From a virus: a DNA stretch of 64,000 nucleotides. The translations under genes and the position numbers were made by a program. The notes below the pieces were generated by a model. That model was not told the DNA's origin. It saw only the letters and a list, made by a program, of their open reading frames with translations, and did no database searches. Below, piece after piece: positions 5,392 through 64,000 of this stretch (position 1 is its first letter; each line of letters starts with the position of its first letter). The stretch spans positions 88,720-152,719 of IMG/VR virus record IMGVR_UViG_3300033183_000354, one strand, 5' to 3'.

Positions 5392-5420
5392 TGTACATTG
5401 CCTAAAGATTGTAGTAGTAT
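5392..5420 (+). promoter_or_regulatory. Sigma70-like early promoter
   Basis: TGTACA (5392-5397), 17-base spacer ending TTGTAG, then TAGTAT (5415-5420). The upstream TGC-G-TTTTTTT block sits exactly 12 bases before TGTACA, as at 976. A perfect TATAAT at 5426-5431 could serve as an alternative -10 but has no matching -35 at normal spacing. Confidence 0.6.
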
Positions 5421-5447
5421 AGTCCTATAATCAAAGAGGAGTTTATT

Positions 5448-9122: not shown

Positions 9123-9137
9123 TACGTATATATACTA

Positions 9138-9166
9138 TGTACAATACAGTCGATACGATGTATAAT
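9138..9166 (+). promoter_or_regulatory. Sigma70-like promoter of gene 32
   Basis: TGTACA (9138-9143), 17-base spacer, TATAAT (9161-9166). Start expected near 9173, leaving a leader of about 30 bases with AGGA before the gene 32 ATG. The -35/-10 geometry is identical to the promoter at 988, though the spacer sequence differs. Confidence 0.7.
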
Positions 9167-9204
9167 ACTACAGTTAATATTACAGCACATACAAGGATAC
9201 AAAC

Positions 9205-40442: not shown

Positions 40443-41208
40443 TAAAACTAATACCGAAATCTTTATTAACGTGGTGCAAAATATAAGCTGCTGCAGAAGG
40501 ATCCGGAGAAGATTGATCCAATATAAAATTCCATTGAATACCAATATTTGTATATGGTACGTCAAATTTTTCTATTAAATATGAAATATAAACTTCATTA
40601 TTATGAATCCAACTTTTATTTATTTCTTCAGGATATAGGTTGTCTAGACTAGCCTCTTCAAACTTATTAAAACAATAATCAAATCGTTCACTAAATTTTA
40701 ACTTATCAATGGAATTTTTATTTGCAGCAATAACTCCAGTATTAAGCATCTCATCATTACCATTTATATCATCAAGTAAAAGCATAGCATTCTTAGCGCA
40801 TGTTTTACTATACATATCCATCTTATGCCAAGAATCGTTTTTTAATCTAGAATGCATTTGGTCTGAAGTTGGTTTTTTAACTATACCATATGCGCAAATT
40901 TTATTCAAATCAAAAGAATCAAATATATTCTTTGTTGTCTGAGGTACTATATCAAAATCAAAGTAAACTACTTCATCATAATCATTGACGAGTTTTTCAA
41001 GTAGAAAGATTTTTTCAAATTGAATTTTATCATAGTCTGAAACAGAAGTTGTAAATAATTCATAGTCAGCGCCACAATTTTTTGCATAGGATTTCTGCGA
41101 TTCTAAGATTTGATCTTTGAATTTGATAAACTGATTACGCTTGAAATCGGGGACAGAACTATGTTCTTCCACTTGATCGGTATATAAACTATAGATAATT
41201 CTTTTCAT
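40435..41208 (-). CDS. Glycosyltransferase (GT-A, DxD type)
   Basis: 257 residues. N-terminus MKRIIYSLYTDQVEEHSSVP, DxD in VVYFDFDIVPQT (about residues 97-108) and MLNTGVIAANKNSI further on are typical of family 8-like glycosyltransferases; the C-terminus has HHVNKDFG. Paralogous to the next upstream gene (same IIYSLY start, DFDxVP and xNKDFG end). Overlaps the radical SAM gene by 8 bases and the upstream glycosyltransferase by 20. Confidence 0.8.
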   Translation of the reverse strand: MKRIIYSLYTDQVEEHSSVPDFKRNQFIKFKDQILESQKSYAKNCGADYELFTTSVSDYDKIQFEKIFLLEKLVNDYDEVVYFDFDIVPQTTKNIFDSFDLNKICAYGIVKKPTSDQMHSRLKNDSWHKMDMYSKTCAKNAMLLLDDINGNDEMLNTGVIAANKNSIDKLKFSERFDYCFNKFEEASLDNLYPEEINKSWIHNNEVYISYLIEKFDVPYTNIGIQWNFILDQSSPDPSAAAYILHHVNKDFGISFNA

Positions 41209-44038: not shown

Positions 44039-44347
44039 ATGGCCGTTAAAAAGAATTTTGTAGTTAAAACGGGACTTGAAGTAGCAGATTCGGCTGTTGT
44101 GACAGGAGTGTTCAAAGCTTCGGGCTTAAGATATCCTACTGCAGACGGGAATGCAAATGAAGTAATTAAAACAAACGGAAATGGAATTTTAAATTTTGGT
44201 AAGTTGAGAGTTGGGGATCTTGATGATGTTAATTTGGCCACGCTCGCTGAAGAAGGTATTTTAGTTTATGATTCAGCTACCGAAAAATGGATCGCCAAGA
44301 ATGAACTTGTTGGCACCGATATAACATCAGACGGAGGCTTTTACTAA
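44039..44347 (+). CDS. Small fibre-linked protein
   Basis: 102 residues with VKKNFVVKTGLEVADSAVVT and the later GILNFGKLRVGDLDDVNLAT, YDSATEKWIAKNELV. These blocks (KTGLEV and a WxxxNEL end) are common as fibre shaft start and pre-head segments in marine T4-like phages. Shares a stop/start overlap with the 946-residue fibre, so they should be made in linked amounts. Confidence 0.65.
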   Translation: MAVKKNFVVKTGLEVADSAVVTGVFKASGLRYPTADGNANEVIKTNGNGILNFGKLRVGDLDDVNLATLAEEGILVYDSATEKWIAKNELVGTDITSDGGFY

Positions 44348-47187: not shown

Positions 47188-47199
47188 TATATAGAATAT

Positions 47200-47227
47200 A
47201 GTCGGAGGGTTTTCTAATCCTCCGACT
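47200..47227 (+). terminator. Rho-independent terminator-like hairpin
   Basis: AGTCGGAGG (47200-47208) pairs with CCTCCGACT (47219-47227), nine pairs, loop of ten bases, followed by an A-rich stretch and TTTTTT at 47240-47245. It separates the 946-residue fibre from the next fibre gene. Confidence 0.6.
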
Positions 47228-47256
47228 TAAAACAAAACCTTTTTTAAGGAATTGAG

Positions 47257-47943
47257 ATGTCAACTATTAAGCTGAAAAAGTCCAGTATATCTGGACGCGT
47301 GCCAACTTTAAGTGACCTAGACTACGGGGAATTAGCCATCAACTATGCTGATGGCGTTTTATATTATAAAAACTCGTCTACAGGCATTCAAAGGATTGGC
47401 GCTACTCCGATCGGAGTCGATTCAGCTGCAGTTATTAATATCATCGATAAAGCATTTATCGATAATCTTGACGTTAATGCTGGTACATTAGACGGACAAG
47501 ATGGCACTTATTTCCTCAACTATAATAACTTTACGAATACGCCAACAGCAGCTGATTTTAGAGACTCTGCTTTTGTCACAAGTATTGCTTCACAAACTAA
47601 AAGCCCGGCAGACTCTGCTTCTGTAGCATCTATCGTTGATAGTGCCTTTGTACAAACTCTCATAAGAGAAGACTATGTTGCTACTATCGTCGATTCGGCG
47701 TATGTTGCTTTACGCGTAGGCGATTTTACAGATAACTTTGGAACAGTCGCAGTCGTCGGTGATTTATCTATCGATGCTACGACAGGTGGTGATACGATTA
47801 CCTTTGCAGCTGGATCGGGAGTTGATATTTCAACAAACGTAGCTCAAAAGAGAGTAACGATTTCTGCAACACCAAGTACAGTATATGATTTTGGAACGAT
47901 TACGAGTCCGGTTGGATTTACACTTGATATGGGTGCTATATAA
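47257..47943 (+). CDS. Fibre protein with D-S-A-F/Y-V motifs
   Basis: 228 residues. Start STIKLKKSSISGRVPTLSDL, DYGELAINYADGVLYYKNSS is the usual fibre N-terminal module. It has NNFTNTPTAADFRDSAFVTS and several D-S-A-F/Y-V segments, a shorter form of the repeats in the next gene. The end (TSPVGFTLDMGAI) is beta. It may be an adaptor between the fibre shafts. The late promoter of the next gene overlaps its stop. Confidence 0.7.
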   Translation: MSTIKLKKSSISGRVPTLSDLDYGELAINYADGVLYYKNSSTGIQRIGATPIGVDSAAVINIIDKAFIDNLDVNAGTLDGQDGTYFLNYNNFTNTPTAADFRDSAFVTSIASQTKSPADSASVASIVDSAFVQTLIREDYVATIVDSAYVALRVGDFTDNFGTVAVVGDLSIDATTGGDTITFAAGSGVDISTNVAQKRVTISATPSTVYDFGTITSPVGFTLDMGAI

Positions 47944-47946
47944 ATA
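47939..47946 (+). promoter_or_regulatory. T4-type late promoter
   Basis: Exact TATAAATA overlapping the stop codon of the previous gene, 21 bases before the ATG at 47968. The following bases (GGTTAAAGG) resemble those after the variant element at 55091. Confidence 0.7.
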
Positions 47947-47967
47947 GGTTAAAGGTTAGAGGATAAC

Positions 47968-50900
47968 ATGACATTACAACTAAGAAGAGGTACTGACTCC
48001 GATAGATTAACGATCACCCCCTCGGCCGGTGAACCTATTTGGACGACTGATACTGAGAAATTATATGTAGGTGACGGTACTACTGCGGGCGGTGTACTTG
48101 TAACCGGAAGTGGAACAGCTGGTACTGATTCAGCTACTGTAAGTTCGATCATTTCGGCAACCGTTGACTCTGCGTATGTACAAGCAAGACAAACTGACGT
48201 TTATAGAGATTCTGCTTTTGTAACGAATATTATTGATAGTGCATATATTCAAGCGAGACAGACTGACATCTATCGTGATTCTGCCTTTGTAACAAATATT
48301 GTTGATTCTGCCTATATTCAAGCTAGACAAGCTGACGTTTATAGAGATTCTGCCTTTGTTACTTCAATTGTTAATGCAGCTTATATTCAAGCAAATCAAG
48401 CTGACATCTATCGTGATTCTGCCTTTGTAACAAATATCATCGACTCTGCTTATATTACAGCAAGAGCGTCTACTTATGATTCAGCCAATTTTACTGGTCA
48501 ATTAGCGGCTGCTAGTACTTCAGATTTAAGTGAAGGTACTAACCTTTACTATACGACTGCTCGAGCTGATTCTGATGCGAAGAATGCTATTAGTGTTACT
48601 GATGCCGGTGGTGATGGATCTTTAACTTATAACAATGGTGTCATCACTTATACTGGTCCTTCTGCATCTGAAGTAAGAGCACACTTTAGCGCAGGCACTG
48701 GTGTCACGATTAGTTCTGGTCAAATTAGTATTGGACAAGCATTAGGAACGACCGATAGTGCTGTCTTTGCTTCAGTTACTACTACAGGTAATATTATAGT
48801 CGGTGGTAATTTACAGGTGACTGGTACTACTACCACAATTAACTCTGAAACCCTTAATATTACTGACAACATGATCTATATGAATGCTGGGGAATCTTCT
48901 GGTTCATCAACAGCTTCGATTGATGTTGGTTGGGCAGCAAACGTTAACGACGATGGATCATATACCCATGTTGGTATGTTCCGTGACGCGACTGATAACA
49001 CATTTAAGGTATTTGGAGCTTATTCTCTCGAACCAGATGCTGCAGTAGAAATTAATACTGGCCATGCTTCATTTGCTCTTGCTCCATTCGCAGCGTCTAC
49101 ATTGAGCGGAAAATATCTTGGGTTTGACTCAGACTTCACAGCAAAATCTACTTCTGATCTTACCGAAGGTACTAATCTTTATTATACGACAGCAAGAGCA
49201 GATAGTGATATTACTGTAAAAGTAACGAATACATTCCTTCGCGGTCTTATCGATGATTCTTCGGTTATTATTGATGGTAATGGTTCTACTGGTGGTGTTA
49301 CAATTGCTGACGGCGGAATCACAATTAAATCTGGTACAGGTAGCGTAGCTTATACTGATTTCTACTGTGAAGCATCAAATGCACATAGAACTCGAGTTAA
49401 ATCAGCAGCGCATGCCGATTATTCCGGTAATGTTGATGTTACACTTCCAACATCAACCGGTACTCTTGCTCTTACTTCTGATATTCCAACAGCTGTAAGT
49501 TCTTTAACAAATGATGCTAACTATCTCGATAGCACATATGCTCAAGCTCTTATTGACTCTGCTTATATTCAAGCAAGACAGACTTCAGGTGGTGGAACTA
49601 CTCAGCAGACATTTAAAACTATTTCAGTTTCAGGTCAATCTGATGTGGTTGCTGATGATTCGGCCGATACACTTACATTAGTTGCTGGGTCAAATATTAC
49701 TATTACAACTAACGCAGCTACTGATACTATTACAATTGCGTCAACTGGCGGTGGGGGTGGATCTGCAGATTCTGCTACGATCATTGCTATTGTTGATTCT
49801 GCCTATGTACAAGCAAGACAAACTAGTGTATCATCATCTTCTATTACCGCTACGGTAAGCAACTACACTTATACGGCCGATTCAGGCCAAACAGCATTTA
49901 GTGGTGTTGATGACTTTACAAATACGCTATCTTATACGGCTGGTACTGGTACTCAAGTATTCTTGAATGGTCTTCTCCTAGTTGATAGTGATGACTATAC
50001 TGCTACGAATGGTTCATCTATTACGTTAACAACAGCTGCTGATAGTGGAGATACTTTATCGATCGTTGCATGGAACACTACTCCTCAAGTTAATGTTGCG
50101 GCAGCGACTACTATTACTCAATATAACTATGAAGCTGATTCAGCTCAAACCACATTCGGTGGTTCTGATATTGATGGTCAGACTTTATCCTATACTGCAG
50201 GTGAGTTACAAGTATTCTTAAACGGTATCTTACTCGTAGATAGCAATGATTATACTGCTACAAATGGCTCAAATGTAGTCTTACAAAGTGGCGCTGATTC
50301 TGGCGATATGATTTCGGTCATCTCTTATGTAACAGCTACTTCGAATCTTAATTCAACAATTGAAAGCATTGTCGATTCTGCTTATGTACAGGCAAGACAA
50401 ACTGCCGGAGGCGGTGGCACAGTCGACTCAGCAGCCGTTATTGCAATTGTTAATACAATTGATCCTACAATCAATAACTATTATTATACAGCAACTGCTT
50501 CACAAACTGCTTTTACTGGTGCTGATAATGCTGGTAATACTTTAAGCTATACAACTGATAAGCTTCAAGTTTATCTAAACGGTATTTTATTAATTGATAG
50601 TGACGATTATACTCAAACTAATAGTAGCACTGTAACTCTTACTTCAGCTGCTTCAAGCGGCGATACAGTTACAGTAGTTAGCTACAAGACAGGTAGTGCC
50701 GCAGTAAATGACGCGATCGCCGCCGTGGTCGATTCGGCTTATGTTACTGCTCGAGCAGGTGGTGCACATAGTTGGACCGAAAAGACAACTAATTATACTG
50801 CTGTAGCTAATGATAGATTATTTGTTGATGCTTCAAGCGGTGCAATTACAGTAACGCTTCCTGCTACCCCTTCAATGGGTGATGAAATAAGAATCATCGA

Positions 50901-51057
50901 TGCATATGGTGTAGCAGCAACAAATAATATTACTATCTCAAGAAATAGTAAGAAAATTAATGCTGTTGATTCTGACTTTGTTCTTGATGTTAACAGAGCA
51001 GCTATTGGCTTAGTATATTATAATGATTCAAACGGATGGCTATTAATAGAGAGATAA
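47968..51057 (+). CDS. Large tail fibre with two kinds of internal repeat
   Basis: 1029 residues. N-terminal attachment motif (LQLRRGTDSDRLTITPSAGE, PIWTTDTEKLYVGDG). Residues 67-158 are four 23-residue repeats (DSAYIQARQTDVYRDSAFVT). Then LNITDNMIYMNAGESSGS and a mid part like the 946-residue fibre. Residues about 630-910 hold three copies of a 70-90 residue beta unit with QVFLNGILLVDSNDYTATNG. The C-terminus has AVANDRLFVDASSGAITVTL and a final NDSNGWLLIER, like a collar or knob. A trimeric fibre is likely. Confidence 0.8.
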   Translation: MTLQLRRGTDSDRLTITPSAGEPIWTTDTEKLYVGDGTTAGGVLVTGSGTAGTDSATVSSIISATVDSAYVQARQTDVYRDSAFVTNIIDSAYIQARQTDIYRDSAFVTNIVDSAYIQARQADVYRDSAFVTSIVNAAYIQANQADIYRDSAFVTNIIDSAYITARASTYDSANFTGQLAAASTSDLSEGTNLYYTTARADSDAKNAISVTDAGGDGSLTYNNGVITYTGPSASEVRAHFSAGTGVTISSGQISIGQALGTTDSAVFASVTTTGNIIVGGNLQVTGTTTTINSETLNITDNMIYMNAGESSGSSTASIDVGWAANVNDDGSYTHVGMFRDATDNTFKVFGAYSLEPDAAVEINTGHASFALAPFAASTLSGKYLGFDSDFTAKSTSDLTEGTNLYYTTARADSDITVKVTNTFLRGLIDDSSVIIDGNGSTGGVTIADGGITIKSGTGSVAYTDFYCEASNAHRTRVKSAAHADYSGNVDVTLPTSTGTLALTSDIPTAVSSLTNDANYLDSTYAQALIDSAYIQARQTSGGGTTQQTFKTISVSGQSDVVADDSADTLTLVAGSNITITTNAATDTITIASTGGGGGSADSATIIAIVDSAYVQARQTSVSSSSITATVSNYTYTADSGQTAFSGVDDFTNTLSYTAGTGTQVFLNGLLLVDSDDYTATNGSSITLTTAADSGDTLSIVAWNTTPQVNVAAATTITQYNYEADSAQTTFGGSDIDGQTLSYTAGELQVFLNGILLVDSNDYTATNGSNVVLQSGADSGDMISVISYVTATSNLNSTIESIVDSAYVQARQTAGGGGTVDSAAVIAIVNTIDPTINNYYYTATASQTAFTGADNAGNTLSYTTDKLQVYLNGILLIDSDDYTQTNSSTVTLTSAASSGDTVTVVSYKTGSAAVNDAIAAVVDSAYVTARAGGAHSWTEKTTNYTAVANDRLFVDASSGAITVTLPATPSMGDEIRIIDAYGVAATNNITISRNSKKINAVDSDFVLDVNRAAIGLVYYNDSNGWLLIER
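48166..48441 (+). repeat. Four tandem 69-base coding repeats
   Basis: Four in-frame copies of a 23-residue unit beginning D-S-A-Y-(V/I)-Q-A-R-Q. DNA copies are similar but not identical and encode protein, so this is a fibre shaft repeat, not a CRISPR. Related single D-S-A-Y units recur further on in the same gene. Confidence 0.8.
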
Positions 51058-51058
51058 T

Positions 51059-52018
51059 ATGGGAACTTATTCGTCGGCTCTTCGAGCCACTGCAAACGCA
51101 GCAGATATTACAGGTGCGACTGATACGTATGCAACACCAAGTCTTTTACCTCTTTCTGGAGTAACGGCCGGTTCACAGGCATATGTGTCCTCTACTAATC
51201 GATTGTATATCTTTACCGGTACTGGTTGGTATAGCATTGCTCTTGTCAATAATAATCCAGTTATTTCAAGTATTTTAACTTCTAACGATAGTTCAAGTCC
51301 TATTGCTCTTAAGACATCTGGCAATAATACGATCGTAACGGTTAATGCAGTTGATTCTGAAGGAATACCTCTTACTTATTCATATGTAACAGATAGCGGG
51401 TTTGATGGTCTTGCTACGATTAGTGCTCAAGATTCGAGTGTATTTACGATTACTCCATTTAGCTCAGACTCTGCTACAACTACTTCAGGCATCGTGACAT
51501 TTAAGGCAAGTGATGGAATAAATGTTACAACTACTAATACTACATTTACGCTTTCATTCCTCACTCTTATTGATGCTGATATGGTTCAAGGTTCTTGGGG
51601 TAAGCAAAGTTATGCAGCACACTCGTTTAGCGGTACTGAAGTATATGTTACTCATAGTCAAAACTTTAATACTAATTCACATCGCGAATTTACTGGTCTT
51701 ACTATCGGGCAAACATATCAACTCGATTATGAACATAAGTCTGCTACGAGTGGTGGTACCGAAACATTCTATATAACAGATACTCTGTATACTACTACTA
51801 GTTTGTCTAGTCTTAATGTTACTCAATTAGCTGGTACTACTTGGAGTGAATCAAATACTATTTCAAATGGCGCTAGTTATGCTGAATCTACGTCTTATGT
51901 GTCATTTAGCTTCCGATTTGAAGCATCTGCGACAACTATGTATGCTGTCTTTGCACCAGATTATCCGGATCAAAATGCGTATTACGTAAGAAATCTTAAA
52001 CTATATAAAGTAGGTTGA
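51059..52018 (+). CDS. Adhesin paralogue 1: unique C-terminal head
   Basis: 319 residues, first of seven related genes. Residues 1-65 carry the shared module LPLSGVTAGSQAYVSSTNRL, FTGTGWYSI; residues about 85-165 a cadherin/Ig-like domain (PLTYSYVTDSGFDGLATISA, FTITPFSSDSATTTSG, VTFKASDG). The C-terminal about 145 residues (HREFTGLTIGQTYQLDYEHK, YYVRNLKLYKVG) form a beta-jelly-roll-like head not found in the other copies. Only one base lies between this gene and the preceding fibre. Probably a receptor-binding tip. Confidence 0.7.
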   Translation: MGTYSSALRATANAADITGATDTYATPSLLPLSGVTAGSQAYVSSTNRLYIFTGTGWYSIALVNNNPVISSILTSNDSSSPIALKTSGNNTIVTVNAVDSEGIPLTYSYVTDSGFDGLATISAQDSSVFTITPFSSDSATTTSGIVTFKASDGINVTTTNTTFTLSFLTLIDADMVQGSWGKQSYAAHSFSGTEVYVTHSQNFNTNSHREFTGLTIGQTYQLDYEHKSATSGGTETFYITDTLYTTTSLSSLNVTQLAGTTWSESNTISNGASYAESTSYVSFSFRFEASATTMYAVFAPDYPDQNAYYVRNLKLYKVG

Positions 52019-52026
52019 TGTCATAA

Positions 52027-55000
52027 ATGGCAAACTATTCTTCTATATTAAGGTCTGATGCTACGTCGATATCAGGGTTTACTTCACAGGTCAATGTTTA
52101 TTCTACTATCAATGATTTACCTTTAAGTGGAGTTGCAACTGGTTTAAGGGCATATGTTACTGGCAATAATCGTTATTATTTTTATAACGGTACAGGCTGG
52201 TCAAGTATCGGTATTGCAAATACTTCTCCATCTTTGACAGATTCAGGAACACCTGAATCTACATATGCACTTGCAATCGATGGCTCTACACCTACGATTA
52301 TTACTATTATTGCGACAGATCCAGAAGAACTTCCTATTACATATTCTGTTGTCGCAGATTCTGACTTTAGTGGATTAGCATCTGTTTCTCAAGATTCAAA
52401 TGTATTTACAATTACACCATTTAGTTCTGACTCTGCTACGACTACTTCTGGTACTCTTACCTTTAAGGCAAGTGACGGCGTTAATATCGCGACTGCATCA
52501 TCAACGTTTACTCTTACGTTTGAGATTGCTAATTCGAATTATACAACACTTCTAGCAAAAGCAAGTGGAAATTCTGGTACAAATACTTCTGTTACTGATT
52601 CTTCTTCAAATGCTCATACGATGACAGTTAGCGGTGACGTTAGGACTACTTCATTTAGTCCTTATAGAAGTGGTGGATATAGCTACTATCTTAATGGATC
52701 GTCATATGTACGTCCTACTAATAAGCATTCTGTAACTACAGGTAATTGGACGATGGAATTTTGGGCATATATGCCTGATCTTAATACTTCAAATACTTAT
52801 GCAATTGCTGAATTTCAAGTAAATAATAGTTCTGCGTTTGAAGTTTTGATGCCAAACTTGGATGGTTTAGCGCTTAAAGCCACTTCAGTTGGTACTACCT
52901 TTGACTCTAGGACTTCAGGCGGTAATCCTACTGCATATCCACCTGTAAGAGAATGGTTCCATATAGCTATAACTTATAATGGTAGTTATGTTAAATTATA
53001 TTTAAATGGTGCTGAATTATTATCAGTGGCTAACTCATCACTAGATGTTACTAATACACATTTAAATGTTGGAGCATGTTTAAGAGGTACTGACTTCTAC
53101 TTTACAGGCTATATCTCAGACTTTAGATTGGTAAAAGATGTAGTATATAATGGCAATTTTATTCCACCAACCGAACGTTTAACTACGATCACAAATACTG
53201 ATCGTTTATTAGCTAGTTTACCATATTTAGGTGACGCGTCTGATAGTACTGAACCTTTGATAGCTTCAGGAAGCCCAACTATTGAGGCATTTGCTCCATA
53301 TAATTATTCGCCTTATAGTGCTTCTTCTCATGGCGGGTCTGTATACTTTGATGGCAGCGGTGATTATTTAACTGTAACATATAATTCTAATCTCGACTTA
53401 ACTCAAGCTTCAACTCATACTATTGAAGCGTGGGTATATCTTACATCTACTCCAAGTGCTAACACATCAATTATTACTACAAGACCAAGTTCAGGTCCAT
53501 ATGGCTACGACGTTAGAGTTAATACTAGTCGTCAAATTCAATATTATCATACTGGTGCTGGTTCAGTTACTGGCAGTGTTGCGATGGTATTAAACACGTG
53601 GAATCATGTTGCTGTAGTATTAACAGGTGGAACTGCTTATATTTACATTAATGGAATACTCGACACTTCTGGATCTTTTTCTTCTGGATTTGCTACTACT
53701 CAATCGCCATATATTGGAAGAAGTGGTACTTCTGTAGCTTATTTGCCTGGATATATCGCAGATCTAAGAGTCGTAAATGGTACGGCTGTATATACGGCTG
53801 CATTTACTCCACCAACTTCTCCATTAACAGCTATAACTAATACTGCACTCTTAATGAGCGGTCAAGATGCTAAAGTATATGATGCATCACAAACTGTTGG
53901 TGCATTAACACTAGCTGGTAATGCAACATCATCAACTACGCAAACAAAATATGCTTCATCTTCTGTTGCTCTTGATGGCACTGGAGATTATATTTCTGTT
54001 GATAAAACTATTGGTCATTTTGGAACGAGTAATTTTACAATTGAAGGATGGTGGTATTTTAATACTGTATCTGCTGGTTATCAACCAATTATAACACTAG
54101 GACAAGATGCGGATCAAAGAGGATGGGGTCTTATCACTGAAACAGATAATGAACTAGCATTTTATATGAGCAACGGATCAGCGTGGTCTTATAATATTGC
54201 ATCAACAACAGTACCTAATTTAAATGCGTGGAATCATATTGCTGTTACACGTAGTGGCGGTACTTTAACGCTATTTTTGAATGGTACATCAATAGGCACT
54301 GCTAGTATAGGAGCTAATAGTACTCACACTACAACTTCTGGAGCTCTATATATTGGTCACTACCCATTTTTCCCTGGAGGTGCTCGTTCTTTTAATGGTT
54401 ACATAGAAGATGTTAGAATTACAAAGAGTCTTTCACGTTATCCATTTATTCCAACAAAAGAGACACTTACAGCAGTTTCAGGAACATCAATACTAACTGC
54501 ACATACATCAAGTTTAACTGATGGATCAAGTAATAGTCATACCATTACTACTAATGGATCAATGGCTTCTCCTACTTCATTTGCTCCTTCTAGTGGAATG
54601 TATTCTCAATATTTTGATGGATCAGATGATTATATTACAACTTCTTCTGATACATCATTTGGTCTTGGCACAGCTGACTTTACTTTTGAGTGCTGGTATT
54701 ATTGGCCTTCTGGTTCTACATATGCTTGGCTTATGGATATGCGAGATGTTGGTACGAGCTATATTCAAACTAAACCTGCATTATATTCAACTACTAGTAA
54801 TTTAATATATTATGTTGATGGTGGGGATTTCATTTCCGCTCCTGTATTACCTACAAATAAATGGGTACATGTAGCTTTAGTAAGAGCAAGTAGCGTAACA
54901 AGAATATTTGTAGATGGATCGATAGTCGCTTCAGGAAATGATACAAAAGATTATGGATCAAGTGCATCATTTAAATTTGGTAGAAATGAAAATACTTATT

Positions 55001-55095
55001 ATGGTACAGGGTATGCTTCTAATATAAGACTGGTTAAAGGAACTGCTCTCTATTCAGAAGACTTTACGCCTCCTACTAGTCAATTGAATGGATAA
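52027..55095 (+). CDS. Adhesin paralogue 2: four LamG-type domains
   Basis: 1022 residues. Shared N-terminal module (INDLPLSGVATGLRAYVTGN) and Ig-like domain (to about residue 172), then four LamG/concanavalin-like domains of about 170-200 residues, each with the pattern YFDGSGDYLT ... IEAWVYL ... WNHVAVV ... YINGILDTSG ... IADLRVV. LamG domains bind sugars, so it may recognise a host surface glycan. It is closely similar to the 57805 protein, with a 31-base identical DNA stretch. Confidence 0.8.
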   Translation: MANYSSILRSDATSISGFTSQVNVYSTINDLPLSGVATGLRAYVTGNNRYYFYNGTGWSSIGIANTSPSLTDSGTPESTYALAIDGSTPTIITIIATDPEELPITYSVVADSDFSGLASVSQDSNVFTITPFSSDSATTTSGTLTFKASDGVNIATASSTFTLTFEIANSNYTTLLAKASGNSGTNTSVTDSSSNAHTMTVSGDVRTTSFSPYRSGGYSYYLNGSSYVRPTNKHSVTTGNWTMEFWAYMPDLNTSNTYAIAEFQVNNSSAFEVLMPNLDGLALKATSVGTTFDSRTSGGNPTAYPPVREWFHIAITYNGSYVKLYLNGAELLSVANSSLDVTNTHLNVGACLRGTDFYFTGYISDFRLVKDVVYNGNFIPPTERLTTITNTDRLLASLPYLGDASDSTEPLIASGSPTIEAFAPYNYSPYSASSHGGSVYFDGSGDYLTVTYNSNLDLTQASTHTIEAWVYLTSTPSANTSIITTRPSSGPYGYDVRVNTSRQIQYYHTGAGSVTGSVAMVLNTWNHVAVVLTGGTAYIYINGILDTSGSFSSGFATTQSPYIGRSGTSVAYLPGYIADLRVVNGTAVYTAAFTPPTSPLTAITNTALLMSGQDAKVYDASQTVGALTLAGNATSSTTQTKYASSSVALDGTGDYISVDKTIGHFGTSNFTIEGWWYFNTVSAGYQPIITLGQDADQRGWGLITETDNELAFYMSNGSAWSYNIASTTVPNLNAWNHIAVTRSGGTLTLFLNGTSIGTASIGANSTHTTTSGALYIGHYPFFPGGARSFNGYIEDVRITKSLSRYPFIPTKETLTAVSGTSILTAHTSSLTDGSSNSHTITTNGSMASPTSFAPSSGMYSQYFDGSDDYITTSSDTSFGLGTADFTFECWYYWPSGSTYAWLMDMRDVGTSYIQTKPALYSTTSNLIYYVDGGDFISAPVLPTNKWVHVALVRASSVTRIFVDGSIVASGNDTKDYGSSASFKFGRNENTYYGTGYASNIRLVKGTALYSEDFTPPTSQLNG

Positions 55096-55098
55096 ATA
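55091..55098 (+). promoter_or_regulatory. Variant late promoter
   Basis: GATAAATA, one mismatch, at the stop of paralogue 2; followed by GGTCAAAGG, which resembles GGTTAAAGG after the exact element at 47939. The next ATG lies 17 bases downstream. Confidence 0.35.
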
Positions 55099-55114
55099 GG
55101 TCAAAGGTGTAAGT

Positions 55115-56509
55115 ATGGTCTCGAGAGCAAGAACATTATCTGATAGAGTTGCTAAAGCGTATGCGGCCGGTAAATTAAATACTGACGGCACAATTACTGG
55201 TGCAGCTGTTACGACTTATAGTACTTATGCTAGTGTCTCAAATACTGGTAATTCAGTAGGAGACATTGCTATTGTTAATTCAACTAAAAGCATGTATGTT
55301 TGGGATAGTGATGGTTGGAGAACTATTACTACCTATAACTTTACTCCTATTATTGATGATAGCTCTTATAATAGTAGTTATACCCTTGATTCAGGTGGAA
55401 ACCCAACTATTCTTAGCTTGACTGCTACTGATTCAGATGGCGCAATTCAAAATATTTCTTGGTCATATACTGCTTCTGATTCTGCTTCTACATTTGTAAC
55501 TATTTCTCAAGATTCGAGTGTATTTACAATTACTACGAAAAATGATTCAGATATTCAAGCGATATATCCAGATGGTGGTGATTTTACTATTACCTTTACT
55601 GCGACTGATAGTGTATCATCTGATACTGCTACTGTAACCTTTACTCGAACATATTATCCAACTCTTGAGATTTATATGTGGGGTGGTGGTGCTTCGGCTG
55701 GTTATCAAAATTACACTTCTCCTTATACAGGAAAGGCTGGTAATGGTGGTGGTGGCGGTGCTGTCTATGGAGAAATTAACCCAGGATCATATATTGGTAG
55801 TACATTTAAAATTGAAAATAATAGAGGAGCTGGACCAACAGATACTGGTATAGCCGGAAATAATGGTTATGGAGGAGGATGTTCAGCCCTTTGGACTCAA
55901 AATAGTAATAGTGACCTCAATTATCTAGCACTTGTTGCCGGAGGTGGAGGTGGCGGTGGTGGTAATAAATCAGGTGGTGGAGATTATTCTTCAGGAAGAG
56001 CAGGCGGGCCAGGAGGAGGAAATTCTGGCACAACCGGCAATGGATCTTATCCTGGAGGAGGAGGTACTCAATCTGCCGGTGGCGCGAGTGGCGGGTCTGG
56101 TGGTAGTGCCGGTAGTCAATTTCAAGGTGGATCTGGTTATTATCCTTCTATTAATTTTGGAGAAAATAGTGGCGGCGGTGGCGGTGGATATTATGGCGGC
56201 GGTGGCGGCGGTTCTGACGGTGGTAATAATACTGGCGGCGGAGGCGGAGGATCGAGCTATATCAATACGAGTATAGTGTCGAATGGTGTAACATACTCTG
56301 GTTCAGGTGCATATCCAGGAAATTCTTCATCATCTTATAGGGGTGGTGCTGGCAATGGGGTAGTTTCTGGTGTTCAAGGTAGATCTAATTCGCGAGTAGT
56401 AATTAGATATCAAGGTTCACAGATTGCTACAGGTGGTACCATTACGACATCAGGTGGTTATACTCAACATGTATTTACCGGTAATGATACATTTACGCTT
56501 ACAGGATAA
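55115..56509 (+). CDS. Adhesin paralogue 3: glycine-rich head
   Basis: 464 residues. N-terminus SRARTLSDRVAKAYAAGKLN; then the shared module in a more distant form, and an Ig-like domain (ISWSYTASDSASTFVTISQD). From about residue 187 the chain is a glycine-rich domain (EIYMWGGGASAG, VAGGGGGGGGNKSGGGDYSS, YYGGGGGGSDGGNN) ending in SRVVIRYQG and TQHVFTGNDTFTLTG. Gly-rich sheets of this sort make the receptor-binding tips of T-even gp38 adhesins (polyglycine II). A different head on the same stem is likely. Confidence 0.75.
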   Translation: MVSRARTLSDRVAKAYAAGKLNTDGTITGAAVTTYSTYASVSNTGNSVGDIAIVNSTKSMYVWDSDGWRTITTYNFTPIIDDSSYNSSYTLDSGGNPTILSLTATDSDGAIQNISWSYTASDSASTFVTISQDSSVFTITTKNDSDIQAIYPDGGDFTITFTATDSVSSDTATVTFTRTYYPTLEIYMWGGGASAGYQNYTSPYTGKAGNGGGGGAVYGEINPGSYIGSTFKIENNRGAGPTDTGIAGNNGYGGGCSALWTQNSNSDLNYLALVAGGGGGGGGNKSGGGDYSSGRAGGPGGGNSGTTGNGSYPGGGGTQSAGGASGGSGGSAGSQFQGGSGYYPSINFGENSGGGGGGYYGGGGGGSDGGNNTGGGGGGSSYINTSIVSNGVTYSGSGAYPGNSSSSYRGGAGNGVVSGVQGRSNSRVVIRYQGSQIATGGTITTSGGYTQHVFTGNDTFTLTG

Positions 56510-56512
56510 AAG

Positions 56513-57802
56513 ATGGCAAAGTCGAGAAATAGAGATATAGCTTCTACGTTTGGAGGTGCTGTTGCTAATAATAAATTATCAGCCTCTGGTGTATTTAATT
56601 CAGCCACAGTAAATCATTATGATTCAATTGGTGGATTGCCTTTATCTTCGGTTGATTCAGGAAGCTTGGCTTTTGTTGTACCTACTGATAAGTTTTATGT
56701 TTTTACTAATAGTGGATGGTATAATATAACTTTATCCAATAATACTCCATATTTTATTGTTGGACCTGATTCTGCATATACAATCGATAGTGCAACTGGA
56801 GCAACTATATCATTGAGTGCAGGCGATTCAGATTTTAATAATTTAGATAATATTATAACATATTCTGTGACACTGGATTCTAATTTTAGTCGAATGGCTA
56901 CTATTACTCAAGATTCAAGTGTATTCACGATTAGTCCTAAAAGTGCCACAGTTGCAGATTCTGCAGTAGTAGCAGCTGGCGCAGGTAATACGTCGACGAT
57001 TACATTTACAGCATCTGATGGTATTACTTCGGCAAGTCAAAATTCAGTTATTACTTATACTGGAATAGGTCAACCTGCTCGAAACTTTGTTACAGATTCT
57101 ATTGTTGCTTTTTATGACGCGCAAGACACTTCGAGTTATTCTGGTTCAGGCAGTACATGGACAAATATTTCTGGTCAAAGTGGTGATCTTACGATATATA
57201 ATAGTCCAACTTGGAATAGTAATGGCTACTTTACTTTTAATGGTTCAACTCAATATATGAGAAATACAAATCTATTTAATATGGGTATGGGTGAAACCTT
57301 TACTGTTGAAGGATTTGTTTTTATTCCATCTTCACCATCTTATTTTAAAGTATTTAGTAATGACAGAGTAGCTTATCAGGGTTCAGAAGGATGGATAGAT
57401 GTTGAAGCCACAACAGGAAAAATTAGATATGGGGTTGATTCGAGAGTTGGTTCACCTTATAGTTATTTTATGTCAAGTGGAACATCTAATATTAATCTGA
57501 ATGGATGGAATTATTTCTCTATGACAGGTAATATTGGTACTACATCAATGTCAGGTAGACTTTTAATTAATGGTGAAATTGAAAATCTTTCTGCTTCTTT
57601 AACTTGGTCAGGTTTTACTGATCAAAACTATACTCAATTTAGTGTTGGTAGACATTATAATCATGTTTACAGTGATAATTATTTTAATAGTTCTATCTCA
57701 ATGATTAGATTATATAATGATCAACTTACTCAAGCAGAGCAAGAGCAAAACTTTGAAGACTTTTTAAACTTCAATAGCATATCATTTACATATACGAGTT
57801 AA
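56513..57802 (+). CDS. Adhesin paralogue 4: one LamG-type domain
   Basis: 429 residues. N-terminus KSRNRDIASTFGGAVANNKL, shared module (IGGLPLSSVDSGSLAFVVPT) and Ig-like domain (DNIITYSVTLDSNFSRMATI). A LamG-like C-terminal domain from about residue 195: IVAFYDAQDTSSYSGSGSTW, YFTFNGSTQYMRNT, FTVEGFVFIP, GWNYFSMTGNIG, ISMIRLYNDQLTQAEQEQNF. The TQAEQEQNF end is common in phage LamG heads. Three bases after the previous gene. Confidence 0.75.
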   Translation: MAKSRNRDIASTFGGAVANNKLSASGVFNSATVNHYDSIGGLPLSSVDSGSLAFVVPTDKFYVFTNSGWYNITLSNNTPYFIVGPDSAYTIDSATGATISLSAGDSDFNNLDNIITYSVTLDSNFSRMATITQDSSVFTISPKSATVADSAVVAAGAGNTSTITFTASDGITSASQNSVITYTGIGQPARNFVTDSIVAFYDAQDTSSYSGSGSTWTNISGQSGDLTIYNSPTWNSNGYFTFNGSTQYMRNTNLFNMGMGETFTVEGFVFIPSSPSYFKVFSNDRVAYQGSEGWIDVEATTGKIRYGVDSRVGSPYSYFMSSGTSNINLNGWNYFSMTGNIGTTSMSGRLLINGEIENLSASLTWSGFTDQNYTQFSVGRHYNHVYSDNYFNSSISMIRLYNDQLTQAEQEQNFEDFLNFNSISFTYTS

Positions 57803-57804
57803 CG

Positions 57805-60800
57805 ATGGTATCATTAAATAGAAATTTAGCAGCAGCATTAGGTCAATCAGCGGCAAATGATACTGTAAGCGATACAGGTGCGCCAGCTGGTGGATTAACT
57901 ATATTCGATTCAATCGGAGAAATGACAGCTACTACGGCTACTGCATCAAGTGGTGAATTAGGTCTATTAAGAGATTCAAATCTTTTATATGTGCATAATG
58001 GTTCAGGTTGGTTTAAGATGGCAGTTATTAATACTTCACCATCTTTTTCTACTTCTCCAGAAACTACGTATGAACTTTCAAATACAGGAGCAGTAACTAC
58101 AATTACTATCCTTGCAACCGATCCTGAAGGTCTTCCTATTACATATAGCGCATCAGGTAATAATGATTTTAATGGTCTTGCAACTGTTTCTCAAGATTCG
58201 AGTGTATTTACTATTACACCTTTAAGCGAAGACTCTGCTACGACTACTTCTGGTATATTAACATTTACTGCTTCAGATGGAGTAAATCTTGCTACAGCTA
58301 CTTCAACCTTTAGCTTAGTATTTAAAGTAGAAAATGCAAATTATACTCGGCTTTTAATAAAAGCTTCTGGCAATTCTGGTACAAATACTAGTATTACTGA
58401 TTCTTCCTCAAACTCACATTCTCTTACGATTAATGGCAATACACATGCAAGCTCATTAAGTCCATATTCTTCAGGTGGCTATAGTTATTATTTTAATGGA
58501 TCAAGTGATTATCTTTATGCAGCTGCATCATCTGATTTTGCTTTTGGCACCGGTGACTTTACAATTGAATTTTGGGCATATATTACTAATACCACTACTA
58601 GTCGAATTTTAACTAATAGAGCTACTCAAACCGGCGCCGCCGGTACATGGTCTTTAACTTTAAATTACAATACAATTAGATTTACAGAAGTTATATCTGG
58701 TGAGCCAGGACCGACAGCAAATATCGATATGTTAAATAGATGGGCTCATATTGCTGTTGCTAGAAGTTCTGGTACTACAAAGATATTTGTTGATGGTATT
58801 GAAATTGCAAGTGCAACGCAAACTACAAACTTCAGCAACTCTTCATATAATTTACATATTGGAACTTCTCCTAACGAAAACTACCGAGAAGGCTATTTTA
58901 GTGATATTCGAATAGTTAAAGGTACTGCTTTATATACTTCTAATTTTACTCCACCGACTGAAAGACTAACTGCAGTATCTGGTACAGTTTTACTTACTTG
59001 TCATCTTCCTTATCTTGTAGATGGTTCTTCTGCTGCAAGAACTATTAACATTAATAGTGTCAGAGCGACTGCTTTTAGTCCATATTTGTCATATGCTTAT
59101 TCTGCATCTTCTTATGGAGGATCTGTATATTACGATGGGACTGGTGATTATATTGATTTTTCACCGAGTTCCGATTTTGGATCTAGTGATTTTACGATAG
59201 AAGCATGGTTATATCCTACAGATAGTACTGCTTATCGAGTAGTCTCAGCTAGAAATAGCAATAGTGGATTAACTTTCGGTAGAGCTGCAAATGGCACTTT
59301 TAGTATATTTTATGGAAATGGTACTGCATATCTAGATATAGCAAATGTTGTTCCTTTAAATGTATGGACACACGCAGCATTAGTTAGAGAGAGCGGAACG
59401 GCTAAAGTTTATATTAATGGAATATTTAAAGGATCTGTAGATTGGTCGGGTAAATCATTTACTTCAACTACTTATAGAATTGGTAATAGCTATGATACCC
59501 GAAATGAAACTTTTGATGGAAATGTTTCTGACTTACAGATGATCAGTGGTACTGCAAAGTATACTGCTAATTTTACTCCTAACACAAGCCCTATTTCAAC
59601 TGCAAGCGGGGCGATGCTTCATTTAAAAGGACAAGATGCTAAAGTATATGATGCATCACAAAATAAAGTAATAACTTTAGCTGGTAATACTTCTTCATCA
59701 ACTGGACAAACAAAATATGCTTCTTCTTCAGTTTATTTTGATGGTACCGGAGACTATGCTACTATATCATATGATGCTGAATTAACAAAATGGTGGACAA
59801 AACCATATACAATTGAAGCATGGATATATCCTACTAATCTTGCAAATTGGGGATATGATGCTAGTTATCGTCCTAATTTAATTTGTCACGGCACACATAA
59901 TTCTACTATAAACTATTGGTCATTTGGTACCAGTGACGATGGTGCAGTATATTTCTATTATTGGAATGGTGCTGTTAATGACGTTAAATCTACAACTGGT
60001 CTTGTGACTGCTAATACATGGTCTCATATTGCTATGACTCACAATAACGGTGTTATTAATTTATATCATAATGGGACGCATGTAAAAACGGCAAATGTAA
60101 GTGGAACGCCTCAGGAAAGTTCTAGCTATCCTATCAATATTGGAATGATTAATAATGTAGGTATTATTGGTTATGTAGAAGATTTAAGAATAACAACTGG
60201 TCTTAGTCGATATTCATATATTCCTGCAAAGGAAACTTTGTCTGTGGATGCTAATACTATTTTATTAACAGCGCATGCTTCATCTGTCACGGACGGTACT
60301 AGTAACTCTTCTCCAACAGCATCTGGTAATGCTGCAGTAACAACACATGCTCCAAAACAAGGTATGTATTCAATCGATTTTGATGGAACAGACGATAAAG
60401 TCTCGATAAGCAATCCTAATACTGCATTTGGAAGTTTAACAGGTGACTATACTATTGAATGTTGGGTTAATATGGATGCTGTGCCTTCAGGTGATGGTAA
60501 TGGAGATGAAAACCAAATTATTGGTCAATCAACTTGGCCAGAAAATGCAACTAGTGGTAATTGGTGGGTATTGTTTGCTGTAGCAAGTGGTGTTTATTTC
60601 TACACTGCTGATGGGTCTAATTATACTGCTCATCATGCAACTGCTATGTCTTGGACAGTCGGAAAATGGACTCACATAGCTGTAGTAAAATCAAGTGGGA
60701 CTGTTTCTGTCTATATTGATGGATCACTTCAGACTTCTGGTTCCAATGATGATACTCTTATTGCTGATAACAATAGAGCTTTAACTATTGGCAATGATGC

Positions 60801-60903
60801 CGGAAATACTAATGACTTTAATGGACAAATATCGAATTTACGTGTATCAAATACTGCTCGTTATACAAGTGATTTTACACCACCTTCTTCGGCATTAGTA
60901 TAA
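57805..60903 (+). CDS. Adhesin paralogue 5: four LamG-type domains
   Basis: 1032 residues, nearly the same build as paralogue 2: N-terminal module (NLLYVHNGSGWFKMAVINTS), Ig-like domain (LPITYSASGNNDFNGLATVS, FTITPLSEDSATTTSGILTF), then four LamG-type domains with YFNGSSDYLYAA, IEFWAYI, WAHIAVAR, FVDGIEIAS, FSDIRIVKGTALY. The third LamG domain shares a 31-base identical DNA block with paralogue 2. It may be an older duplicate now diverged for another glycan. Its stop overlaps the late promoter of the next gene. Confidence 0.8.
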   Translation: MVSLNRNLAAALGQSAANDTVSDTGAPAGGLTIFDSIGEMTATTATASSGELGLLRDSNLLYVHNGSGWFKMAVINTSPSFSTSPETTYELSNTGAVTTITILATDPEGLPITYSASGNNDFNGLATVSQDSSVFTITPLSEDSATTTSGILTFTASDGVNLATATSTFSLVFKVENANYTRLLIKASGNSGTNTSITDSSSNSHSLTINGNTHASSLSPYSSGGYSYYFNGSSDYLYAAASSDFAFGTGDFTIEFWAYITNTTTSRILTNRATQTGAAGTWSLTLNYNTIRFTEVISGEPGPTANIDMLNRWAHIAVARSSGTTKIFVDGIEIASATQTTNFSNSSYNLHIGTSPNENYREGYFSDIRIVKGTALYTSNFTPPTERLTAVSGTVLLTCHLPYLVDGSSAARTININSVRATAFSPYLSYAYSASSYGGSVYYDGTGDYIDFSPSSDFGSSDFTIEAWLYPTDSTAYRVVSARNSNSGLTFGRAANGTFSIFYGNGTAYLDIANVVPLNVWTHAALVRESGTAKVYINGIFKGSVDWSGKSFTSTTYRIGNSYDTRNETFDGNVSDLQMISGTAKYTANFTPNTSPISTASGAMLHLKGQDAKVYDASQNKVITLAGNTSSSTGQTKYASSSVYFDGTGDYATISYDAELTKWWTKPYTIEAWIYPTNLANWGYDASYRPNLICHGTHNSTINYWSFGTSDDGAVYFYYWNGAVNDVKSTTGLVTANTWSHIAMTHNNGVINLYHNGTHVKTANVSGTPQESSSYPINIGMINNVGIIGYVEDLRITTGLSRYSYIPAKETLSVDANTILLTAHASSVTDGTSNSSPTASGNAAVTTHAPKQGMYSIDFDGTDDKVSISNPNTAFGSLTGDYTIECWVNMDAVPSGDGNGDENQIIGQSTWPENATSGNWWVLFAVASGVYFYTADGSNYTAHHATAMSWTVGKWTHIAVVKSSGTVSVYIDGSLQTSGSNDDTLIADNNRALTIGNDAGNTNDFNGQISNLRVSNTARYTSDFTPPSSALV

Positions 60904-60906
60904 ATA
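60899..60906 (+). promoter_or_regulatory. T4-type late promoter, five bases from a start codon
   Basis: Exact TATAAATA overlapping the stop of paralogue 5, followed by GTGAT and then ATG at 60912. There is no room for a normal ribosome binding site. The spacing equals the sites at 4709 and 14900 on the minus strand. Confidence 0.65.
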
Positions 60907-60911
60907 GTGAT

Positions 60912-61976
60912 ATGGCACGTACGAGATCAGGTAATATCGCAGAAGCGATTCGAAAAGCATTAACTCGAGGAACTTTAACATCAGCTGGCAATTTAGTTGG
61001 TGCTGGTGGAGTTAATGTTTATGCTACGATTAGTCAACTGCCGCTTTCTGGTGTAACTGCTGGTACTCAAGCATATATTACAGCAACAAATAGATTATAT
61101 GTGCACAATGGTACAGGTTGGTATGCCATTAATGTAGGTGATGCATATTCAGCATTTCCAACTGTTATGGAATTTTATTTGTGGGGCGGGGGCGGAGAAG
61201 GTGGTATGCAGTATAGTACCAATGGGTCTGGTGCTGGAGGCGGCGGAGGATTTACTTATGGTGAGCTAGCTAGTCCTGCAAATTCTATAGGAACAACATA
61301 TACTCTTAAAGTGAATGCTGGCGGTGGATTTGCTTATTCTGGTGGCATTGGTGGCGGATATACTGGAGTCTTTACTTCTGCAACTATTTCTCAAGCAAAT
61401 GCTGCTCTGATTGCAGGTGGTGGAGGCGGAGGCGCAGCTAATCAAGGTGGTGCTGGCGGCGGATTAACTGGACAAAATGGTGCTTTTAATAGCAATGCCG
61501 GTGAAGGTTATGGGGGATCCCAATCTGCTGGTGGTGGATGGAGAAACACACCATATAATGATCCTGGTGGGTCTGGTTCCGCTTTAACTGGGTTTTCTCA
61601 AAATAGTGCCGGTGGTCCAGGCAATGGAAGTTATTCCGGTGGTGGTGGCGGTGGTTACTTTGGTGGCGGCGGTGGTGGTAAGTACTATGGTGGAGGCGCC
61701 GGTGGAGGTGGATCAGGATATGTGGATTCAGCTGAATTTGTAAATTCGTATACTCAAGTTGGAAGTAATGCAACTCCAGCAAATTCATCTTCGTCTCTAA
61801 GAAACGGTAGAGGTGAAGGAGGTTCAGCTCAGCAAACATCTGCGCCAACAAAGGGAATAGCTGTTATTCGTTATGAATCTGGAACTGCTGTAGCAACTGG
61901 TGGAACAATTACAACAGATGGAAGTTATATAGTTCATACGTTTGATTCAGATGGATCATTCTATATCACAGGATAA
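60912..61976 (+). CDS. Adhesin paralogue 6: glycine-rich head
   Basis: 354 residues. N-terminus ARTRSGNIAEAIRKALTRGT, LVGAGGVNVYATISQLPLSG, NRLYVHNGTGWYAI is the shared module. There is no Ig-like domain; the chain goes directly into a glycine-rich domain (MEFYLWGGGGEGGMQYST, GGGGGGYFGGGGGGKYYGGG) ending GIAVIRYESGTAVATGGTIT, SYIVHTFDSDGSFYITG. The end resembles that of paralogue 3, so the two heads are homologous. May start leaderless from the 60899 promoter. Confidence 0.75.
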   Translation: MARTRSGNIAEAIRKALTRGTLTSAGNLVGAGGVNVYATISQLPLSGVTAGTQAYITATNRLYVHNGTGWYAINVGDAYSAFPTVMEFYLWGGGGEGGMQYSTNGSGAGGGGGFTYGELASPANSIGTTYTLKVNAGGGFAYSGGIGGGYTGVFTSATISQANAALIAGGGGGGAANQGGAGGGLTGQNGAFNSNAGEGYGGSQSAGGGWRNTPYNDPGGSGSALTGFSQNSAGGPGNGSYSGGGGGGYFGGGGGGKYYGGGAGGGGSGYVDSAEFVNSYTQVGSNATPANSSSSLRNGRGEGGSAQQTSAPTKGIAVIRYESGTAVATGGTITTDGSYIVHTFDSDGSFYITG

Positions 61977-61979
61977 GAT

Positions 61980-64000
61980 ATGGCAGAGACAAGAGCAAGA
62001 GACGTAGCAAGAACATTTGGTCAAGCAATTGAACAGAATACTCTTACTGCAACAGGATCACTTGGTGTTACAGGTTTTTCTGTATACGTTACTATTGATG
62101 ATCTTCCTCTATCAGGAGTTCCAGCTGGAACTCAAGCATTAGTCACTTCAACAAATACTCTTTATATCAATAATGGCGTAGGTTGGTTTAAGATTGCTCT
62201 TCTCAATACTAATCCTTACTTTACTGATTCTGGTACACCAGAAAGTACATATGCTTTGTCCTCGCAAGGAATAGCAACTACTATTACATTAATTGCTGTT
62301 GACTCTGAAGGTATTCCTATTACATATAGTGCAGTTGCTGATTCAGATTTTGGTGGACTTGCATCTATTTCTCAAGACTCTTCGGTCTTTACTGTTACAC
62401 CATTTAGCGAAGATAGCGCAACGACTTCTTCTGGTACTGTCACATTTAAAGCAACTGATGGTGTTAATATTGCTTCTGCTCTTTCTACATTTACATTACA
62501 ATTTTCAATACCTAATTCAAGTCATACATTACTTCTTGCAAAGGCATCTGGCAATGACGGTACAAATGCTATTACCGATGAATCTTCGAATGGTTATACA
62601 CTAACAAAGTCTGGTGATGTAAAAAGATCTGCATTTAGTCCATATCGCGATGCTGGATATAGTTATTATAATAGTGGCGGAAGTGCAACAAAGGGATATT
62701 CATTTACTAATATTCTTGGTGGATATGGATCTGGTAATTTTACAGTAGAAACTTGGGTATATTTAACATCTAATAATGATTATTCTAAAACTATATTTTC
62801 TAATTTTTATTATTATAATGGAACATCAAATGCTAGTGTAAGATTAACTATAAACAGAGAAGATATTTATTGGAACATGTATACTGGTGGCGGGACAGCA
62901 GCCAATGGTGCGCCACAAACAAATTTACATTATGCAGCACAAGATAATTATTTAAATAGATGGGTTCATATTGCTATTGTAAGAAATAGCGGCTATATTT
63001 ATTTGTATGTTGATGGCATTCAAAGAATTAGTTCTGCTCTATCATCTGATAGTACTGTTAATTATCCAAATAGAGATTTATATATTGGCAGAAATTACTT
63101 ATATAGCGGAAGTCCATCAGAATCAAGAACCGACTATGGTGGACCACTTTATTTAAAAGATTTTAGAATATCTAGTAACGCAAGATATACCGCAGATTTT
63201 ACTCCGCCTACTGAAAAATTAACAGCTGATGCAAATACTGATTTATTACTATTTAATACACCATATGTGAAAGATGCATCATCTAATGATTATACTATAA
63301 CGCCTTATGATTTAACTCAATTAGAACCGTTTAGTCCATATGATAATACTGCATCTTATTCTGCATCTAATAACGGTTCGTCGTTATATTTTGATGGAAG
63401 TGGTGATTATCTAACAATTGCAGATACAAATTCACGAGTAAGTACAGGAAGTTATACAGTTGAGGGATGGTTCTATTTAGAAGGTCTACCATCTACAAGA
63501 TCTCAGCACGCAACTTTACATACACAATATTACCCGTCGTCTGGTGAAGGTGGTCGATATTTGACTTATATTTCTTCTAATGATAATGCATTTACTTATT
63601 GGGTTGGAGCAGATGGGTCTACAACACACTCGAATATTATTAAGACACATCAGTGGTATCATTTCGCGGCGGTAAGAAATGGGACTAGTTGTACATTATA
63701 TTTAAATGGTAAAGGTGAAACAGATGGTGTAGTTTATGATACTTCAATCTATCAAGAAAATCCACAGGTTGGTGCAGAACCTAATAATGGTACTTATTTA
63801 CAAGGATATATTGCCGATTGGCATTTAACAAAAGGTACTGCAAAGTATACTTCTGATTTTACTCCACCAACAGCTCCTATTAGTAATTCTAGTGCTACAA
63901 CATCAATTGCTAATGTATCTACACCTAATTTGTATAGTGCTTCTCAAAATAGAAATTCTCATGCTCTTTATGGAAATGTAAAGTCTTCGACTGGTCAAAC
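61980..64000 (+). CDS. Adhesin paralogue 7: LamG-type, cut by window end
   Basis: Starts at the ATG at 61980 and stays open to the end of the window (at least 673 residues). N-terminus AETRARDVARTFGQAIEQNT, shared module (IDDLPLSGVPAGTQALVTST), Ig-like domain (IPITYSAVADSDFGGLASIS, FTVTPFSEDSATTSSGTVTF), then at least two LamG-type domains (FTVETWVYLTSNN, RWVHIAIVRNSG, YFDGSGDYLTIA). By layout it resembles paralogues 2 and 5. The true end lies beyond the window. Confidence 0.8.
   Translation, partial: MAETRARDVARTFGQAIEQNTLTATGSLGVTGFSVYVTIDDLPLSGVPAGTQALVTSTNTLYINNGVGWFKIALLNTNPYFTDSGTPESTYALSSQGIATTITLIAVDSEGIPITYSAVADSDFGGLASISQDSSVFTVTPFSEDSATTSSGTVTFKATDGVNIASALSTFTLQFSIPNSSHTLLLAKASGNDGTNAITDESSNGYTLTKSGDVKRSAFSPYRDAGYSYYNSGGSATKGYSFTNILGGYGSGNFTVETWVYLTSNNDYSKTIFSNFYYYNGTSNASVRLTINREDIYWNMYTGGGTAANGAPQTNLHYAAQDNYLNRWVHIAIVRNSGYIYLYVDGIQRISSALSSDSTVNYPNRDLYIGRNYLYSGSPSESRTDYGGPLYLKDFRISSNARYTADFTPPTEKLTADANTDLLLFNTPYVKDASSNDYTITPYDLTQLEPFSPYDNTASYSASNNGSSLYFDGSGDYLTIADTNSRVSTGSYTVEGWFYLEGLPSTRSQHATLHTQYYPSSGEGGRYLTYISSNDNAFTYWVGADGSTTHSNIIKTHQWYHFAAVRNGTSCTLYLNGKGETDGVVYDTSIYQENPQVGAEPNNGTYLQGYIADWHLTKGTAKYTSDFTPPTAPISNSSATTSIANVSTPNLYSASQNRNSHALYGNVKSSTGQ

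Follow-up and report, generated by a model that had tools for sequence, protein, structure and literature searches.

Tandem adhesin-like paralogues before the neck genes of a probable T4-like marine myophage: a predicted trimerization stem, and head replacement among relatives

Are the adhesin-like genes that lie end to end in the last part of a virus record paralogues with a common stem and different heads, and are those heads exchanged? The initial annotation of this locus proposed that they are, and that the array is either displayed together as a set of glycan binders or kept as a store of heads. The question bears on host recognition, the step that is least well understood in marine T4-like phages, a group with many members known from metagenomes alone. 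We analyzed the window, by which we mean the whole stretch of 64,000 nucleotides at the end of the 152,719-bp IMG/VR record IMGVR_UViG_3300033183_000354, together with the start of the same record, which is called L009 below.

Eight paralogous genes upstream of gp13

The two ends of the record share 131 identical bp (window 63870–64000 and L009:1–131), so that the array continues at the record start; the identical ends make it probable that the record is a complete, circularly permuted genome. A search of the whole record with a profile of the stem and Ig-like domain gave matches at exactly eight places, all in the array (E 1e-19 to 2e-84). Because the matches were confined to this region, the paralogue array is not due to chance. 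All seven starts originally assigned in the window were real open frames on the + strand (Table 1), and the count of at least seven paralogues rose to eight: gene 7 crosses the record ends, and gene 8 precedes gp13. The description of the array as nearly gapless was borne out by gaps of 2–19 bp between the seven genes. The shared motifs LPLSGV and NGxGWYxI were intact in some copies, and elsewhere the module could be recognized by profile only. An Ig-like domain was found in most of the genes, as proposed, and was absent only from gene 6.

Table 1 Features of the array and its surroundings. Positions are those of the window unless preceded by L009, the start of the same record.
Feature	Position	Strand	Length (aa)	Domains and matches
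phrog_358 gene, first	29225–33349			phrog_358; DUF4815
phrog_358 gene, second	33788–35356			phrog_358
Radical SAM/SPASM and GT8-like glycosyltransferase genes	39351–41208	−
Three fibre-type genes	44347–51057			Mtd_N or similar N-termini; DSAY(V/I)xAR repeats
Upstream tail-fibre gene	47968–51057	+		Mtd_N (PF18454, E 2e-8); different N-terminus; flanks the array, no member
Array gene 1	51059–52018	+	319	stem 51059–51244; Ig 51245–51553; head 51554–52015, unclassified, beta-rich
Array gene 2	52027–55095	+	1022	stem 52027–52215; Ig 52216–52521; four LamG 52654–55077 (Laminin_G_3, E 6e-73, Pfam)
Array gene 3	55115–56509	+	464	stem 55115–55333 (PF20010 match); Ig-like 55334–55654; Gly-rich head 55655–56506; weak PKD match
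Array gene 4	56513–57802	+	429	stem 56513–56734 (PF20010 match); Ig 56735–57055; single head, distantly LamG-like; PHROG_24074 match
Array gene 5	57805–60903	+	1032	stem (PF20010 match); Ig; four LamG 58456–60888
Array gene 6	60912–61976	+	354	stem 60912–61136 (PF20010 match); no Ig; Gly-rich head 61137–61973; ALK_LTK_GRD above cut-off (E 1e-6)
Array gene 7	61980–64000 (window end), continuing to L009:1272	+	1053	stem 61980–62201; Ig 62202–62504; four LamG
Array gene 8	L009:1269–4433		1054	stem, Ig and four LamG; 4-bp overlap with gene 7
gp13 (Ad2)	from L009:4476			PHROG match
Hc2 (gp14)	L009:5826–7019		397	PHROG match, residues 5–394

The array sits in the structural region, directly before the neck genes gp13 and gp14. 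The terminase was 74% identical to that of phage C48C1 (Kyanoviridae, 156 kb) and 46–47% identical to those of cyanophages. At the corresponding place C48C1 has other genes, with one weak stem-like match only. Pelagimyophages and cyanomyophages have a host recognition cluster (HRC), described as a hypervariable island that precedes a neck gene and encodes a number of putative fibres with concanavalin and Mtd domains, along with radical SAM and glycosyltransferase proteins (PMC7029224). The radical SAM/SPASM and glycosyltransferase-like genes within the structural region here, on the opposite strand, and the gp13 and gp14 genes downstream of the array fit that cluster. The hypervariability among relatives that marks an HRC was found in the array region as well. 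We conclude that the array is most likely the receptor-binding part of the HRC of a T4-like marine myophage. Neither an array of paralogues on one kind of stem nor head replacement at domain borders is described in the portion of that account considered here.

Several neighboring genes had features of their own. The fibre-type genes at 44347 and 47968 have a stretch of about 249 aa in common with 52% identity. An HRC starts after VrlC; the genes at 29225 and 33788, both large, matched phrog_358, a PHROG without a name, and they cover successive parts of its 2056 positions and look like one large protein split in two. In Hc2, the PHROG match spans nearly the whole protein and only 149 profile positions, and the middle of the protein has LamG-like wording with no Pfam match and looks like a large insertion.

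The stem contains a predicted trimerization fold

The array proteins follow one plan, in which a short N-terminal helix or peptide leads into a domain of about 45 residues, followed by the Ig-like domain and finally the head. A fold search with the AlphaFold2 model of stem plus Ig (gene 7; 57 natural sequences; pLDDT 92) returned only Ig- and cadherin-type structures as its top matches, and the stem was therefore modeled alone (96 sequences; pLDDT 84). The predicted fold is beta-alpha-beta-beta-beta, with about 50 residues. In a Foldseek comparison of this model with the PDB, collagen XV/XVIII trimerization domains ranked highest, followed by Mtd structures; at least 14 of the first 16 fold matches belonged to these two groups, when fusion proteins are included. 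The best matches had an rmsd of about 1.9 Å over 49 residues, a TM score (target) of about 0.69 and a probability of 0.99–1.00, with E values of 0.09–0.5 for this short model. When stem alignments served as profiles against the PDB, the hits were weak and in part spurious, and they were set aside. A search of the whole record with PF20010, the Pfam model of the collagen domain, gave four matches only, all on stems, and two relatives had a match, again on a stem in both. The best scores (15 bits here and 18.3 bits in a relative) did not reach the gathering score of 23.8 bits.

The same fold has been published for the N-terminus of the K1 lyase, a phage depolymerase (PMC8822698). The stem domain differs from the collagen XV/XVIII domain in its marginal sequence similarity and its N-terminal position in adhesins. 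As judged by the best match of the predicted fold, the stem appears to carry a trimerization domain of the collagen XV/XVIII type. Each array gene would then most likely encode a homotrimeric adhesin.

A different role for the stem would be docking. The paralogues could bind each other in one branched complex, as in the Ackermannviridae, where up to four tail spikes are linked by gp10-like XD/TD domains and recombination between spikes has been seen in the laboratory (PMC11414711). In both systems several receptor-binding genes stand in tandem, each with a conserved module at the N-terminus and a binding part at the C-terminus that varies; the array here has eight. The many tandem adhesins with a common N-terminal module would suit such a complex. 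However, Pfam detected no gp10-like XD domain in the array proteins, and the fold matches of the stem indicate a collagen-like trimerization domain. We regard docking as unlikely.

The Ig-like domain gave a profile match to cadherin-23 (E 5e-4), and both profile and model show it to be cadherin-like. The heads comprise four with four LamG units each, two that are Gly-rich and two unclassified. The claim of different heads was thus correct for the LamG, Gly-rich and other kinds, but the eight heads fall into four types and are not all unrelated to each other. The head of gene 1 had no Pfam or PHROG match and no relative in the fetched loci, and that of gene 4 was similar to the head of gene 5. 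When the heads of genes 1, 3, 4 and 6 were compared with the fetched loci, the only useful similarity was a weak one between the two Gly-rich heads. Judging from the LamG and Gly-rich families, the lectin-like heads most likely contact host glycans.

The paralogues are old

The idea that all copies have the same stem was not upheld within this genome. Among the four long paralogues the mean identity was 32% for the trimerization domain and 73% for the Ig domain; the order is given for this genome only, since across arrays the Ig domains are not as a rule closer to each other than the stems are. We rejected recent gene conversion within the genome as an explanation of the Ig similarity, because fourfold sites were near saturation in all domains (0.40–0.47, compared with 0.40 expected). 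Because synonymous sites are near saturation, the duplications must be old. LamG units of the long paralogues were 39% identical at the same position and 34% at different positions, and the four LamG genes are old copies of a single gene plan with four LamG units. Paralogues had exact tracts of 44, 38 and 31 bp in common, which exceeded the expectation from codon resampling (p 0.0025–0.005), a hint that short exchanges may have taken place between paralogues inside this genome.

Heads are replaced as blocks in related phages

Related contigs retrieved by IMG/VR searches contained 185 distinct stem genes. Of 57 related loci, 13 had stem genes upstream of gp13, and the other records searched, which were fragments in many cases, had up to five stem copies each. 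Neither near nor protein searches with the stem or the array found a match in the annotated phage collection, which left no isolates for the comparison, and a scan of bacterial genomes for relatives gave a single weak one.

Among 82 between-locus pairs with stems at least 85% identical, the heads were at most 40% identical in 47 and at least 80% identical in 19, with none at 60–70%. Pairs were scored as swaps when the stem was at least 85% identical, the head at most 40% identical and a 5' DNA block at least 85% identical. Thirty pairs qualified; they fall into seven locus clusters, so that the events are fewer than the pairs. The 5' DNA block ended 307–352 nt past the stem end, which is the end of the Ig domain, in 26 of the 30 pairs and 7–16 nt past the stem end in the other 4. 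Where a 3' match was present, it resumed between −31 and +21 nt of the stop codon. Loci L148 and L133 had 98% DNA identity to +536, followed by heads with 30% identity. Loci L172 and L173 had 97% to +568, heads with 29–30%, and 100% identity resuming at −6 of the gene end. In L022 and L025 four consecutive slots retained the stem and Ig with 80–92% DNA identity and had heads without a DNA match, and the DNA downstream of the changed slots was 91% identical over 7.1 kb. One slot in L153 and L138 had a LamG head in one phage and an FG-GAP beta-propeller head in the other, with stems 84% and downstream DNA 98% identical. The reverse arrangement was found in L110 and L137, where heads 92% identical over 416 aa are joined to stems only 44% identical and the DNA match runs from the conserved stem end to the gene end. 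The flanks of the swaps usually differ by several percent, so that a simple assembly duplication does not account for them.

These results support the proposed head exchange among relatives: a slot can carry another head although its stem, usually its Ig domain, and its flanks stay as they were, and one head can be seen on different stems. The exchanges are those of relatives of this phage. The members of the collection closest to the phage itself are too distant to show a swap in its own array; its best DNA matches to them start at 68268–68345 (joined coordinates), at the end of gene 8, and run into gp13. Within L172, the slots at 3834–5588 and 8213–9811 have unrelated stems (29%) and are 64% alike in the first 98 head residues, which is possibly a transfer of a head within one genome.

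Turnover at the level of whole genes could account for such pairs, if genes had been gained and lost, non-orthologous paralogues were being compared and their stems were alike by selection. Whole-gene transfer is real, since L017 and L026 have a gene 80% identical over its length with unrelated flanks, and the array varies in size among the records. Such turnover would nevertheless not produce a border where the Ig domain ends. In L148/L133, L172/L173, L022/L025 and L026/L117 the stem and Ig DNA is 92–98% identical and, where the sequence is available, continuous with the upstream flank, and only the head differs. Turnover as the sole process is therefore quite improbable.

Divergence of the heads in place, by fast positive selection, was also considered. 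Many changed heads do stay in their class (LamG or FG-GAP) at 25–35% identity, as this would require. Against it are the gap in head identity at 60–70%, the way in which DNA similarity breaks off abruptly at a domain border beside flanks of 90–98%, the change of fold class in L153/L138 and the occurrence of one head on different stems. We give divergence in place very little credence and retain replacement of the heads as blocks.

Recombination machinery and expression

No reverse transcriptase (PF00078) was detected in the record and no DGR machinery was found; in this the array differs from DGR systems, although it resembles Mtd in the second group of stem fold matches and in the N-termini of the upstream fibre genes. 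No resolvase or invertase and no integrase was found, and inverted repeats of at least 20 nt were absent from window 47900–64000. The combination of inverted repeats and site-specific recombinase that characterizes an invertible tail-fibre shufflon was thus not found. A gene for a RecA-like recombinase was present.

All eight array genes are full-length and intact and have their own start codons, which speaks against a silent form of the proposed store of heads. It is possible, if somewhat doubtful, that through alternative expression each virion incorporates a single adhesin of the eight or only a few. Eight large fibres would be many for one T4-like baseplate, and the late-promoter-like octamer TATAAATA was no commoner than chance (11 found, 11.4 expected). 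On the other hand, the intact and nearly gapless frames fit one operon, and neither invertible repeats, in the part of the array searched, nor an invertase was found.

Discussion

Taken as a whole, the array is likely to be an HRC array of homotrimeric adhesins in which homologous recombination exchanges whole heads as blocks. The N-terminal helix and peptide would attach each adhesin to the tail or to another fibre, the collagen XV/XVIII-like domain would trimerize the chains, the cadherin-like Ig domain would act as a joint, and the lectin-like head would touch host glycans. The trimerization domain is not the same from one paralogue to the next, so the chains of each protein probably assemble only with their own kind. 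Selection would maintain the stem of each slot, and usually its Ig domain. Recombination between co-infecting relatives, presumably by the RecA-like recombinase, would be anchored at the conserved stem or Ig before the head and at the gene junction behind it, where the borders lie in the relatives. The location and domains of the array proteins suggest that they are present in the virion, and several adhesins may be made and displayed side by side.

We also offer a more tentative proposal. The diverged stems may bar chain mixing and fix the position of each fibre, while the common Ig domain lets heads move between slots and phages; one virion might then carry up to eight glycan binders that can be reshuffled.

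Parts of this picture are already known: exchange of modular receptor-binding parts (PMC10684548), clusters of several spikes (PMC11414711) and a hypervariable recognition cluster (PMC7029224). Phage receptor-binding proteins show ongoing domain mosaicism in which the N-terminal part is shared and the C-terminal part exchanged (PMC10684548); here, the exchange can be followed slot by slot. A limited literature search found no description of this stem family, its collagen-like fold, the eight-gene array or slot-by-slot replacement at fixed domain borders.

The unit of exchange can be read directly from these loci: the stem, usually with the Ig domain, is kept and the head is replaced, with borders at the Ig or stem end and the stop codon. 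This should be of use for finding receptor-binding heads in metagenomes, for counting exchange rates and for testing whether a particle carries many binders. Head replacement probably helps these viruses to track changing host surfaces.
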